From assembly GCA_028285405.1 (NCBI GenBank), contig JANQPH010000044.1:1-64000 (forward strand): a stretch of DNA of 64,000 nt, read 5' to 3'. Numbering within the stretch: position 1 is the first letter of the stretch; each line of letters starts with the position of its first letter. Origin of the DNA: Thermoleophilia bacterium (GTDB lineage: Bacteria; Actinomycetota; Thermoleophilia; Miltoncostaeales; Miltoncostaeaceae). This document shows, in pieces, positions 25,858-36,763 of the stretch. The notes under the pieces are model-generated. The model was not told the DNA's origin, ran no database searches, and was given only the letters and a program-made list of their open reading frames with translations. The position numbers and the translations under genes were made by a program.

Positions 25858-25931
25858 GGGCGATTAGCTCAGGCGGTTAGAGCGCATCCCTGATAAGGAT
25901 GAGGTCCCTGGTTCGAGTCCAGGATCGCCCA
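25858..25931 (+). tRNA. tRNA-Ile (anticodon GAT)
   Basis: A 74-base cloverleaf can be drawn: acceptor GGGCGAT/ATCGCCC with discriminator A, D-arm AGCTCAGGCGGTTAGAGC, anticodon stem CATCC/GGATG with loop CTGATAA (GAT at 25892-25894), a short variable loop and T-arm CCTGG-TTCGAGT-CCAGG. The CCA end is not encoded. The ATG of the LuxR-type gene follows just 11 bases after the 3' end, so a shared transcript is likely. Confidence 0.97.
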
Positions 25932-25942
25932 TTCCCACGGCC

Positions 25943-26221
25943 ATGGAGCCACCCACTCCCAAGCTCGCTGACATCGGCGCCGACGACGCGCCGGTCAGTC
26001 GAGCCCGCGGCGCCGACCACGGGCCGAGCCCCCTCAGCAGCCGCGAGGTCGAGATCCTCCAGCTGCTCGCTGACGGGTGCTCGAATCGGGACGTCTCCGA
26101 GCGGCTGGTCGTCTCGATCGAGACGGTCAAGACGCACGTGAAGAACATCCTGGCCAAACTCGGCGCGCAGCATCGTGCGCAGGCGGTCGCGATCGCGCTT
26201 CGCCGCTCGCTGATCGAGTAG
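25943..26221 (+). CDS. Small LuxR-family (GerE) DNA-binding protein
   Basis: The 92-residue protein has a disordered N-terminal 28 residues and a complete LuxR/GerE tetrahelical HTH: LSSREVEILQLLADGCSNRD, then VSIETVKTHVKNILAKLG. It has no receiver or ligand-binding domain. The ATG lies 11 bases after the tRNA-Ile 3' end, leaving no room for its own promoter outside the tRNA. Its targets are unknown. It converges on parB, with nine bases between stops. Confidence 0.85.
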   Translation: MEPPTPKLADIGADDAPVSRARGADHGPSPLSSREVEILQLLADGCSNRDVSERLVVSIETVKTHVKNILAKLGAQHRAQAVAIALRRSLIE

Positions 26222-31056: not shown

Positions 31057-31191
31057 TCAGACGGCGAGCTTGGCGCGACCCTTCGCGCGCCGGCGCCGGA
31101 CGATGGCCCGACCACCCTGCGTTCGCATCCGGGCTCGAAAGCCGTGCGTGCGACGACGCTTGCGCTTCTTGGGCTGATACGTGCGCTTCAC
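31057..31191 (-). CDS. rpmH: 50S ribosomal protein L34
   Basis: This 44-residue protein begins [20 protein letters not shown] and ends with [13 protein letters not shown], a complete match to bacterial L34. It starts with GTG and has GGAG eight bases upstream. It heads the rpmH-rnpA-yidD-yidC-jag-rsmG-parA-parB series. Confidence 0.98.
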
Positions 31192-31266
31192 TGTTCGCGC
31201 TCCAGAGCGAGAGGGGCACGGGCGAACTGCGCACGAAGATGTGACGGCGCCCGAGTAGCTCCGCTG

Positions 31267-31272
31267 AGCCTA
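31267..31272 (-). promoter_or_regulatory. Candidate -10 element for rpmH operon (TAGGCT)
   Basis: On the minus strand TAGGCT lies about 75 bases upstream of the rpmH start, which would give an ordinary leader of about 70 bases with a GGAG ribosome site. The -35 is not clear. Confidence 0.3.
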
Positions 31273-31295
31273 GCAGAGCCCGCGTGGCCGTCGCG

Positions 31296-31470
31296 CCGCA
31301 TTCATCCACAGATGTGGAGACGTGTGTGGAAAGTCTCGGGATCGCCGCTGCCGACGGGCGTTCTGCCACCTCGACGGCCGATCGTGCGCTGTGGCATCCA
31401 AACGATTTCGCCGCACTCTCGGACCTTTCTTTTCCACACGCGCGCTCTTCCTCTTTCGCCACACAAGCGC
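31296..31470. other. Candidate oriC: DnaA-box cluster between rpmH and the GHKL gene
   Basis: The 315-base gap 31192-31506 separates divergent gene sets. It holds DnaA-box-like 9-mers relative to TTATCCACA: TCATCCACA (31302-31310), TGTGGAGAC (31313-31321) as a close inverted pair (TCCACA-GA-TGTGGA), TGTGGAAAG (31325-31333), and TTTTCCACA (31430-31438, 8 of 9). A weaker TTCGCCACA lies near 31455. The strand switch of surrounding genes supports an origin here, but a second candidate region is dnaA-dnaN. Confidence 0.5.
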
Positions 31471-31477
31471 GCGGCGT

Positions 31478-31483
31478 TACATT
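31478..31483 (+). promoter_or_regulatory. Candidate -10 element (TACATT)
   Basis: TACATT lies 23 bases before the ATG of the GHKL/winged-helix gene, leaving a leader of roughly 16-18 bases. It is close to the DnaA-box-like TTTTCCACA, so DnaA binding might affect this promoter. Confidence 0.35.
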
Positions 31484-31506
31484 CGCTCACCCCCGACAAG
31501 ACGAGC

Positions 31507-32229
31507 ATGCCACGAACCCTGACCGCAGTCTCCGACGCCGATCCGCCCGTCCACGCCGCGTTCTCCGCTCAGCTGTCAGTGAGCGGCTGCGAGCGCGGGG
31601 TCCCGCCGGACGTGACCGAGATCCGAGCCGGAGGACAAGCCCAGCTCCTCGAGGAGCTGTTCGTCGCCGTCGCGAGCAAGGCGTCCGTGCCCGTGCTCGC
31701 CCTCCGGGAGATCATCGAGAACTTCGTCCACGCCAAGTTTCGCGGGGTGGTCGTGACGATCCTGGATGGGGGGCGGTTGGTTCGGTGTACCGACTCGGGC
31801 CCCGGGATCTGCGACCCGGACCGCGCGCTCCAAGAGGGGTACACGTCGGCGACCGACGCCGACCGGGAGCTGATCCGAGGGGTTGGCAGCGGCCTTCCTC
31901 TCGCCACACGAGCCATGGATGAGGTGGGGGGAGTCCTCACGCTGGACGAGAACCTGGGTGGAGGGACGGTGCTTGCGCTGCACGCACCTCGCGCCGCAGC
32001 GCAAGCGCCGATCGCCGAGACGCCGGAGAGCGCACAGGCCGCTCTGGCGCTCCTGCTCGAGATGGGAAGCGCCGGGCCCTCCGAGCTGGCGGACGAGCTG
32101 GGTTGCTCGGTCGGCAGCTGCGGCCGGGACCTCGTGTTGCTCGAGCATCGCGGACTGGTCGCACGAGAGACCAGCGGCAACCGCCGCCTCACCGAGTCCG
32201 GGGCTGCCATGATCGCGGCCCTCTTCTAA
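31507..32229 (+). CDS. GHKL ATPase-like protein with C-terminal winged helix, at the origin
   Basis: The 240-residue protein has a GHKL/HATPase_c region at about residues 60-160: N-box LREIIENFVHA, G1 CTDSGPGICDP and G2-like GVGSGLPLATRAMD. Residues of about 175-240 form a winged helix (GPSELADELGCSVGSCGRDL, then LLEHRGLVARETSGNRRL). There is no DHp/histidine phosphoacceptor domain and no sensor or membrane segment, so it is not a normal histidine kinase. It lies between the DnaA-box cluster and dnaA, 16 bases upstream of dnaA. An ATP-controlled DNA-binding regulator of dnaA or the origin is a reasonable inference, not a demonstrated function. Confidence 0.8.
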   Translation: MPRTLTAVSDADPPVHAAFSAQLSVSGCERGVPPDVTEIRAGGQAQLLEELFVAVASKASVPVLALREIIENFVHAKFRGVVVTILDGGRLVRCTDSGPGICDPDRALQEGYTSATDADRELIRGVGSGLPLATRAMDEVGGVLTLDENLGGGTVLALHAPRAAAQAPIAETPESAQAALALLLEMGSAGPSELADELGCSVGSCGRDLVLLEHRGLVARETSGNRRLTESGAAMIAALF

Positions 32230-32245
32230 GGACGCCGCGACGCCG

Positions 32246-33628
32246 ATGCTCCCGGACTCTCCGACGCAGCAACTCGACTCCGTCTGGGACGAGGTGCGCC
32301 AGCGCCTCCGAAACACGGTCAACCCGGCCACCTACGAGTTCGCGTTCGATCGGGCGAGGCCGGTCGATCTGACGAGCGGCCGGCTCACGCTGGCGGTCGA
32401 GACCGAGTTCGCGCGCGGCTGGGTCCACGCCAGGTACCTGCCGCTGCTGCGCGACGCGCTCTTCGAGGTTCTCGGCACCGACGTCGACGTCGACATCACC
32501 GTCGCGCCGCGGCCCGCCGGCGAAGGCGAGACCGGCGAGATCGAGGAACCCGCACCGGAGCCGCAGCCGCCGAAGCGCCGCCAGACCAACTGTCGCCTGC
32601 AACCGCGCTTCACGTTCGAGGCCTTCGTCACCGGGCCCTCGAACCACTTCGCCCATGCGGCGGCGCTGGCTGTCGCCGAGGCGCCGGCGAGCGCGTACAA
32701 CCCGCTTTTTGTCTACGGCGGTGTCGGCCTCGGCAAGACGCACCTCCTCCACGCGATCGGGAACTTCGTCGACCAGAACCTGCCGGAGCTCGCGTACCAC
32801 TACGTCTCGGTCGAGACCTTCACGAACGACTTCATCAACGCGCTGCGCGACGGCGGGATGCGCTCGTTCAAGGACCGGTACCGGAGCACGGACATCCTGC
32901 TCATCGACGACATCCAGTCCCTGGCCGGCCGCGAGCAGACCCAGGAGGAGTTCTTCCACACGTTCAACGCGCTGCACGACAGCGGCAAGCAGATCGTGAT
33001 CAGCTCGGACCGGCCCCCGAAGGAGATCGCCACCCTCGAGGACCGGCTCCGGTCCCGGTTCGAGATGGGGCTGATGGCCGACGTCCAGGCACCCGACCTC
33101 GAGACCCGCATCGCGATCCTCCAGAAGCGGGCCAAGCGCGAGGGCTACGAGATCCAGGACGCGGAGGTCCTGAACTACGTCGCGAATCGCGTCTCGACGA
33201 ACGTCCGAGCGCTCGAGGGTGCGCTCACCCGCGTCGTCGCGCATGCGTCGATCTCGGGAACCGCCGTGAGCGTCGACCTCGCCAGCGAGGTGCTGGCGGA
33301 CCTCTTCCCGCGCGGGGAGGGCTCGATCCGGATCGAGACCATCCAGTCGGAGGTGTGCCGCCACTTCGGCGTGACCCGTGACGAGCTCCTGAGCCAGCGC
33401 CGGACGCGCCGCATCGCCACGCCGCGCCAGGTCGCGATGTACCTCAGTCGCGAGCTCACCGAGGCCTCGCTTCCGGCGATCGGCCGCGAGTTCGGCGGCC
33501 GCGACCACACGACCGTGCTGTACGCGGTCAACAAGATCGGCGAGATGATGGCCGACGAGGGCGAGATCTTCGGAGCGGTCAGGGAGCTGACGACCCAGCT
33601 CACCGGCAACACCGCTCCCGCCGCCTGA
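32246..33628 (+). CDS. dnaA: Chromosomal replication initiator DnaA
   Basis: The 460-residue protein has domain I (residues 1-80, VWDEVRQRLRNTVNPATYEF), a Pro/Glu-rich linker, an AAA+ domain with Walker A GGVGLGKT (158-165), Walker B ILLIDDIQ and a C-terminal DNA-binding domain ending with the DnaA signature GGRDHTTVLYA. It binds DnaA boxes and melts oriC. AAGGA lies about 12 bases before the ATG, and the gene follows the GHKL gene closely, so the two may share a transcript. Confidence 0.98.
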   Translation: MLPDSPTQQLDSVWDEVRQRLRNTVNPATYEFAFDRARPVDLTSGRLTLAVETEFARGWVHARYLPLLRDALFEVLGTDVDVDITVAPRPAGEGETGEIEEPAPEPQPPKRRQTNCRLQPRFTFEAFVTGPSNHFAHAAALAVAEAPASAYNPLFVYGGVGLGKTHLLHAIGNFVDQNLPELAYHYVSVETFTNDFINALRDGGMRSFKDRYRSTDILLIDDIQSLAGREQTQEEFFHTFNALHDSGKQIVISSDRPPKEIATLEDRLRSRFEMGLMADVQAPDLETRIAILQKRAKREGYEIQDAEVLNYVANRVSTNVRALEGALTRVVAHASISGTAVSVDLASEVLADLFPRGEGSIRIETIQSEVCRHFGVTRDELLSQRRTRRIATPRQVAMYLSRELTEASLPAIGREFGGRDHTTVLYAVNKIGEMMADEGEIFGAVRELTTQLTGNTAPAA

Positions 33629-35114: not shown

Positions 35115-36249
35115 GGTCGCCGAGCGCGCGCCGGGTTGGCGCGTCGGACAGCTCGAGGTGCTCGACGTGCGGTGCTGGCGCCGGGCCGAGATCACGCTTC
35201 CCGACGGCCTGGTCCTGATCACCGGCCTGAACGGTGCGGGCAAGACCAGCCTGGTCGAGGCGGTGACCCTGGCTCTCGTCGGCGTGTCGCCGCGCACCAG
35301 CCGCGAGGCCGAGATCGTCCGCGCCGGCGCCGAGGCCCTGTTCGTCAAGGCGTCGGTGGTGACGCCCGACGGCGCGCGCCTGCGTGAGATCGGCTACGCG
35401 CAGGGCATGGGCCGGCGGATGCGCGTGGACGAGCAGGCCGTTCGCTCGTTGCGGGCGTTTCGCGCACACGGCTCGGTCCTGGTCTTCCTCCCGGACGAGC
35501 TCAGGGCCGTGAAGGGCCCGCCCGCCGCTCGGCGCCGGCACCTCGATCGCGTCGTCGAGGGGGCGATCCGGGGCTATGCGGACACCCTGTCGCGGTACCA
35601 ATCCGCGACCGCGCAGCGAAGCGCGCTCCTGCGCCGGATCCGAGCCGGCGAAGGCGGTGAGCAGGAGCTCGACGTCTGGGATAGCCAGGTCGCGGAGCTC
35701 GGCGCCGCCGTGATCGCCGCCCGTCGGAGCACGCTCGCGGCGCTGTCGGCTCCGTTCGGCGACTACCTGGAGCGGCTCGGCGGCGGCCGAGGAGGGGCGC
35801 TCGGCCACGAGCCATCTCCATCCGTGGTCGAGGATACGTCGGACGACGACCTCGAGGGGGTGCTACGGGAGCGGCTGCTGGCCACCCGCATGCGGGACGT
35901 CGCGGCGGCCCAGACCCTGTCGGGGCCACACCGGGACGACGTCGGCATCTTCTCGAGCGGCGGTGTCGACCTGCGAAAGCTCGGCAGCCAGGGCGAGCAG
36001 CGCACCGCCGCGCTCGCGCTCGTCCTGGCCCAGCGCGATCACCTCGCCGCGGTCGCCGCGCGGCCGATCCTCCTGCTCGACGACGCGCTCAGCGAGCTCG
36101 ACGCCGAGCGCCGCCGCCGCGTCCTCGATGCGCTCGGAGCGGCGGGTCAGACGGTCGTGACGAGCGCGGACCCCGATGTCGCAGAGCTGGCCGCGCGCCG
36201 AGCGGCCGCCCATCTGCGTGTGGAGCAGGGCGAGGTGGTCGATGCCTGA
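35062..36249 (+). CDS. recF: DNA replication/repair protein RecF
   Basis: The SMC-like ATPase has Walker A TGLNGAGKTS, signature LGSQGEQRTAALAL and Walker B PILLLDDALSELD. RecF acts with RecO and RecR to load RecA at gaps. Starts at 35062 (GTG) and 35068 (ATG) both overlap dnaN; the conserved region begins at QLEVLDVRCWRRAEI, so about 30 residues precede it, longer than usual. The stop overlaps the DUF721 gene's start. Confidence 0.94.
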   Translation: MRMSDTAISSCRSGSTPEVAERAPGWRVGQLEVLDVRCWRRAEITLPDGLVLITGLNGAGKTSLVEAVTLALVGVSPRTSREAEIVRAGAEALFVKASVVTPDGARLREIGYAQGMGRRMRVDEQAVRSLRAFRAHGSVLVFLPDELRAVKGPPAARRRHLDRVVEGAIRGYADTLSRYQSATAQRSALLRRIRAGEGGEQELDVWDSQVAELGAAVIAARRSTLAALSAPFGDYLERLGGGRGGALGHEPSPSVVEDTSDDDLEGVLRERLLATRMRDVAAAQTLSGPHRDDVGIFSSGGVDLRKLGSQGEQRTAALALVLAQRDHLAAVAARPILLLDDALSELDAERRRRVLDALGAAGQTVVTSADPDVAELAARRAAAHLRVEQGEVVDA

Positions 36250-36763
36250 GCGCAGGCGGCGGCGCAAGGATGCGGTCCCGGCGAAGGCGCTGGTGGCGAG
36301 GGGCATGCGCCACCTCGGTCCGCCGCCGGCCGTCGCGGCGCTCGAGGCGATCGGCGACGGCTGGGCGGCGCTCGTCGGAGCGGTCGGGGCCGGGAGCAGG
36401 CCCATCGGCCTCAGCCGCACCGGGACCCTGACCGTCGCGTGCGTGTCGGCCGCCCAGGCGCAGCGACTCTCGGACGAGGCCGACACCCTCGTCGAACGCC
36501 TCGCGGACGAGCGCGTCCGCGATCTTCGCGCCGTTGTCTCGAGTGCCCCGCAGCCGGCCACCGCTGACACGCCGTCAGACGGTGACAAACCTCCAAAACC
36601 GACCGTTCGGCCCCGACATCGGGTGGCCGCCCGCCAGGTGGCCGGGGGGGTTGAGGATCCGGCGCTCAAGCAGCTGGTCGAGCGCGGCGCCGCTGCCAGC
36701 CTGGCGAGGGAGGATTCTCCTGCAAAAGACCGAAAAGACAGGGGTGCTGACCAGCACGGCTGA
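36242..36763 (+). CDS. DUF721/DciA-like protein
   Basis: The 173-residue protein lies between recF and gyrB, the standard actinobacterial place for DUF721. The core is VGAVGAGSRPIGLSRTGTLT, then VACVSAAQAQRLSDEADTLV. DciA proteins load the replicative helicase DnaB in bacteria without DnaC. The C-terminal part is low-complexity and basic. The ATG overlaps the recF stop by eight bases. Confidence 0.8.
   Translation: MPERRRRRKDAVPAKALVARGMRHLGPPPAVAALEAIGDGWAALVGAVGAGSRPIGLSRTGTLTVACVSAAQAQRLSDEADTLVERLADERVRDLRAVVSSAPQPATADTPSDGDKPPKPTVRPRHRVAARQVAGGVEDPALKQLVERGAAASLAREDSPAKDRKDRGADQHG

Follow-up and report, generated by a model that had tools for sequence, protein, structure and literature searches.

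An ancient GHKL-ATPase/winged-helix gene fixed immediately before dnaA in basal Actinomycetota and Sysuimicrobiota: a candidate regulator of replication initiation

The window analysed here is a 64,000-nucleotide stretch of DNA from a Thermoleophilia bacterium (assembly GCA_028285405.1, contig JANQPH010000044.1, positions 1 to 64,000). Between rpmH and dnaA it carries an open reading frame, exactly as delimited in the initial annotation, that encodes a protein combining a GHKL ATPase fold with a C-terminal winged helix. The features of the locus are as follows.

31060–31191, minus strand: rpmH, the divergent neighbour
31192–31506, plus strand: rpmH-GHKL intergenic region, probably promoter and part of oriC
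31302 (plus), 31313 (minus), 31325 (minus), 31430 (plus) and 31455 (plus): five DnaA-box-like sites
31404–31421, plus strand: 18-bp element GATTTCGCCGCACTCTCG (family consensus GTTTTTCCCGCTCNNACG), candidate regulatory site
31507–32229, plus strand: GHKL-ATPase/winged-helix gene, 240 amino acids (P0001)
31636–31983, plus strand: GHKL fold in the AlphaFold2 model, residues about 44–159
31702–31734, plus strand: N box LREIIENFVHA, residues 66–76, with invariant R67, E68, E71, N72, H75 and A76
31792–31809, plus strand: G1 box DSGPGI, with invariant D96, G98 and G100
31876–31896, plus strand: G2 box RGVGSGL, residues 124–130, with invariant G125, G127 and G129
32026–32223, plus strand: C-terminal winged helix in the AlphaFold2 model, residues 174–239
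32110–32148, plus strand: recognition helix of the winged helix, residues 202–214, with invariant R207
32246–33628, plus strand: dnaA, the next gene, its ATG at 32246 lying 16 nt past the GHKL stop codon

Two further genes near the origin were recorded. A stand-alone 92-residue LuxR/GerE helix-turn-helix protein (25943–26221) without a receiver domain sits between a tRNA-Ile gene (25858–25931) and parB, and DciA (helicase loader-like, PF05258) is encoded at 36176–36763 in the recF-gyrB interval, as in other actinobacteria.

The domain assignment rests on Pfam profile searches and structure prediction. The window protein matched HATPase_c at E 8e-8, with a score above the gathering threshold. 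Searched alone, it matched winged-helix profiles weakly (MarR at 5e-4 and HVO_A0261_N at 4.5e-6, both under the cutoff), but the assignment is strong across the family, with TrmB down to 3e-9, IclR at 1.2e-7 and HVO_A0261_N matched in 60 of 74 homologues. AlphaFold2, given the 74-sequence alignment as input, produced a confident two-domain model of GHKL plus winged helix (mean pLDDT 87.6, pTM 0.80). The same two domains were predicted for a remote homologue of the Sysuimicrobiota type (pLDDT 84.6), for which the pTM of 0.59 makes the placement of the domains relative to each other less sure. The N, G1 and G2-like boxes and the C-terminal winged helix described in the initial annotation are thus borne out by the HATPase_c match, the family profiles and the models of both proteins alike. 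In the model of the window protein, the GHKL fold starts after only about 43 residues and the winged helix follows it directly through a short linker, without an intervening transducer (S5-like) domain. HisKA gave no match at E <= 1 in Pfam, and the model has no helix pair ahead of the GHKL domain; neither Pfam nor the model revealed a sensor domain or a membrane segment, in agreement with the earlier description of a protein devoid of phosphoacceptor, sensor and membrane parts. In several Coriobacteriia (loci L181, L185, L186, L191 and L230), the linker between the ATPase and the winged helix is long and P/Q/Y-rich, reaching more than 100 residues, and is probably disordered. Both domains are conserved at the loci inspected despite this expansion; we therefore rejected the idea that Coriobacteriia carry the ATPase half only, since the winged helix is retained beyond the long P/Q-rich linker.

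Residue conservation was judged over the 74 homologues, which come from two phyla. Besides the invariant residues listed above, the wing residue R226 is unchanged in all of them. E68, four residues ahead of N72, and N72 itself align with the N-box motif of MutL, 'KELVENSLDA' (ELVEN), which indicates that the catalytic-base position is kept, and to judge from these residues the protein may hydrolyse ATP. A role as phosphoacceptor is improbable for the invariant H75, which sits within the N box. The retained catalytic-Glu and Mg-Asn positions, which the protein has in common with MutL and other GHL ATPases, together with the invariance of E68, E71 and N72, could point away from a regulator and towards an ATP-driven DNA clamp or a structural component of the origin, in the style of MutL or topoisomerase VI B. 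We regard this as improbable: fold searches group the protein with histidine-kinase ATPase domains, the transducer and endonuclease domains of the GHL ATPases are absent, the G2 box and lid are histidine-kinase-like, and the GHKL gene is missing from most relatives whose replication genes are the same.

Indeed, nearly all close structural matches were ATPase domains of histidine kinases or of the related mitochondrial kinases. One exception is the best single fold match, DIP2311 (PDB 3lmm; Foldseek E 9e-7 over 255 columns), which we take to be a COG2865 regulator of the AlbA_2/HATPase_c_4/winged-helix kind. The alignment covers both the GHKL and the winged-helix parts of the window protein, and the order of GHKL followed by a C-terminal winged helix is common to COG2865-like regulators and the window protein. 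However, DIP2311 is twice as long, shows 18% identity and superimposes poorly (TM 0.48, r.m.s.d. 14 Å), it is not in the top 50 fold matches of the remote member, and it has no known linkage to dnaA; neither AlbA_2 (Schlafen-like) nor HATPase_c_4 was matched in the window protein by Pfam. With the catalytic (CA) domains of histidine kinases (ShkA, 6qrj; HK853) the protein shares the GHKL fold and the G1, F and G2 boxes, but the HisKA/DHp domain with its phosphoacceptor His, the sensor and the membrane part of sensor histidine kinases are all missing, and E68 with the ELVEN-like N box is closer to GHL ATPases.

The GHKL fold could also belong to a kinase or anti-sigma switch of the SpoIIAB/RsbW kind, or to an orphan histidine-kinase ATPase domain with some partner protein as its phosphorylation target, the winged helix serving for targeting. 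The spIIAB profile matches 40 of the 74 members, weakly, and the positions of E68 and N72 fit SpoIIAB-type chemistry. Yet a HisKA/DHp domain is absent, the best matches are histidine-kinase ATPase domains and not SpoIIAB, and SpoIIAB and RsbW consist of a single GHKL domain accompanied by an anti-anti-sigma gene, whereas the window protein has an additional winged helix and only rpmH and dnaA as fixed neighbours. No conserved anti-anti-sigma or response-regulator gene lies next to it because its sole fixed downstream neighbour is dnaA. Such a switch is therefore an unlikely reading, although a shade less so than the clamp. A different precedent is NifL, whose GHKL domain is a sensor of adenylate (ADP) without kinase output. 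The nifL profile matches 55 of the 74 members, and the NifL-NifA structure is among the fold matches of the remote member; NifL has a PAS sensor and a partner activator and lacks a winged helix of its own.

The most telling property of the gene is its position. With all loci taken together and identical proteins reduced to one, the gene that follows on the same strand is dnaA wherever the downstream side is readable (142 of 142 non-redundant loci); five further loci stop at a contig end. The gap between the two genes has a median of about 12 nt, with many overlaps of 4 nt, and the pair is probably co-transcribed. In the family of the window organism the order is constant, with yidC-rnpA-rpmH divergent from GHKL-dnaA, and the same arrangement occurs at named loci of Thermoleophilia (Miltoncostaeales), Rubrobacteraceae, Coriobacteriia, Aquicultor, Hakubella and 'Armatimonadetes'/ANGP1/CSP1-3; the GHKL-dnaA linkage was confirmed at the DNA level in more families of Actinomycetota. 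The place given by the initial annotation, with a cluster of DnaA boxes upstream and dnaA 16 nt downstream, is hence that of the orthologues, and looking for the domain pair beside dnaA in Thermoleophilia and other classes revealed a gene locked to dnaA rather than a scattered one. In a few families (loci L029, L057, L067 and L136–L140) rpmH was not found upstream, and the GHKL-dnaA pair is still present, which shows that the association is with dnaA and argues against hitch-hiking with rpmH. Unbroken linkage at so many loci in two phyla argues strongly against chance placement. A general ATP-binding transcription factor unrelated to replication, its place kept by chance or by selection on the operon promoter, is accordingly the least probable of the explanations we considered and a very improbable one, given this linkage without exception.

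Homologues were collected with a narrow alignment pattern scanned over all phyla of the collection; a single-sequence pattern gave no match. The gene is present in many basal families of Actinomycetota (Thermoleophilia, Rubrobacteria, Coriobacteriia, Aquicultor and Hakubella) and in 38 of the 43 genomes of the phylum around 'Armatimonadetes CSP1-3' (Sysuimicrobiota). The best 80 matches of the scan were labelled as, or placed by the tree with, Actinomycetota and Sysuimicrobiota. Within the class of the window organism, 47 of 229 genomes carry the gene at E <= 1e-20, and in four families (f3, f5, f7 and f8) rpmH directly adjoins dnaA in the same neighbourhood minus the GHKL gene. According to the initial annotation, nothing lies between rpmH and dnaA in most actinobacteria; this holds for other families of the class, but 152 of 396 sampled genomes of the phylum possess the gene. 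Four genomes of the window's own family without a GHKL match also lack dnaA, indicating that the stretch is missing from these assemblies, and we rejected true absence there. At family-level stringency the gene is single-copy. Its tree groups by organism, which agrees with vertical inheritance accompanied by losses, but the placement of the root and of several long branches is uncertain. The rpmH-GHKL-dnaA regions of three metagenome-assembled genomes submitted as 'Bifidobacterium breve' and 'Acidobacteria' (L032, CAMCDF010000004.1; L047, CAMAVU010000001.1; L034, JAGWYY010000028.1) group with Miltoncostaeales-like Thermoleophilia, and the submitted names look wrong.

The gene is inherited together with dnaA: pairwise distances of the GHKL protein correlate with those of DnaA (Mantel r 0.63) and DnaN (0.67), compared with 0.74 between DnaA and DnaN. 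This co-variation, the absolute linkage to dnaA with nearly overlapping reading frames and the identical context in two phyla would also suit a protein partner comparable to Hda, SirA or YabA, in which the GHKL domain binds DnaA or the orisome, the winged helix docks at the origin and effects on transcription are secondary. The linkage, however, fits transcriptional autoregulation equally well, and the GHKL distances follow DnaN as much as DnaA and so give no sign of DnaA-specific co-evolution. We consider a DnaA partner to be the foremost of the alternatives, albeit one with rather low odds.

The DNA preceding the gene bears on where the protein might act. The rpmH-GHKL gap of the window contains its five DnaA-box-like sites against 0.15 expected from shuffles, and under the same rule the dnaA-dnaN gap of the window contains none. 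DnaA boxes precede the GHKL gene in nearly all loci, several-fold over expectation, and in many lineages the upstream gaps align on two facing boxes followed by a third. Other lineages have boxes in both gaps, upstream and between dnaA and dnaN; Rubrobacter-type loci (L072, L074, L078, L083, L094, L097, L102 and L103) have 17–19 boxes between dnaA and dnaN, where about 0.3 are expected, and the side of dnaA on which most of the origin is placed seems to differ among lineages. A de novo motif search uncovered GTTTTTCCCGCTCNNACG in 23 of 23 relatives of the same family, at a near-constant distance upstream of the operon; the first strong upstream motif was rejected as a coding stretch (R-x-AVY) of the N terminus, and GTTTTTCCCGC emerged after trimming. 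A pattern search located only one other site of the 18-bp element in the whole genome. Nevertheless, TTTTCCCGC is present in the rpmH-dnaA gap of two of nine relatives that lack the GHKL gene, from which it follows that the element may belong to the origin or promoter and not to the GHKL protein. We do not claim GTTTTTCCCGC as a GHKL operator, as it also occurs outside GHKL-bearing genomes. A cross-lineage palindrome search brought up no clear non-coding motif common to all lineages besides the DnaA boxes, and a sigma-70 promoter/terminator scan of the region upstream of the GHKL gene returned no match.

We favour, at slightly better than even odds, a nucleotide-gated DNA-binding regulator whose gene opens the dnaA operon and which acts on its own promoter/oriC. 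The intact ATP pocket, the invariant residue of the recognition helix, the TrmB/IclR/MarR-like winged helix and the dnaA linkage speak for it, and so do the DnaA boxes ahead of the gene and its co-inheritance with dnaA. Actinobacteria without the gene, which do without such a protein, count against it, as does the outcome of the operator search, which turned up no site specific to GHKL-bearing genomes. In the mechanism we propose, binding of ATP or ADP, perhaps with slow hydrolysis via E68, would alter the dimer or linker arrangement, and the altered arrangement would change the grip of the winged helix on the rpmH-GHKL DNA. Because this region probably has the operon promoter as well as DnaA boxes, the protein would tune the supply of DnaA and/or its access to the origin, and the signal read could be the adenylate state or the level of DnaA itself. 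Nucleotide binding, the DNA target and the direction of the effect are inferred, and the winged helix could instead make protein contacts. As suggested at the outset, the protein may plausibly couple energy or stress state to the expression of dnaA or the firing of the origin. ATP-modulated origin binding exists in Actinobacteria: AdpA of Streptomyces is an ATP-modulated, oriC-binding repressor of initiation, even though it has no recognisable ATP-binding motif (PMC3411110). AdpA and the window protein are unrelated and resemble each other in the proposed ATP-dependent DNA binding at the origin. To our knowledge, the AdpA gene is not adjacent to dnaA.

Searches of Pfam and NCBIfam gave no dedicated family model for the GHKL/winged-helix protein, and a search of the accessible literature yielded no paper naming or describing the gene, so the suggestion that it may be undescribed stands as far as these searches reach. 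Regulators combining GHKL and winged-helix domains are a known kind; the placement next to dnaA is unusual and well supported. The gene is ancient and syntenically fixed before dnaA. Whether it represents an undescribed, ancient class of initiation regulator, one that responds to ATP/ADP and governs the supply of DnaA or its access to the origin in basal Actinomycetota and Sysuimicrobiota, is a more tentative proposition, to which we give a little less than an even chance. DnaA regulators are poorly known in Actinobacteria, and according to the Rv0004 paper (PMC5720831) homologues of DnaA regulators have not been identified in many bacteria, mycobacteria among them. A gene locked to dnaA in two phyla that couples an ATPase pocket to a DNA-binding domain is about the strongest candidate that genomic context can provide, and a strong one for a missing regulator of the start of replication. 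If the proposal is true, initiation in basal Actinomycetota and Sysuimicrobiota would be under a dedicated control that is gated by ATP and differs from SeqA, Hda, SirA, YabA and Soj.
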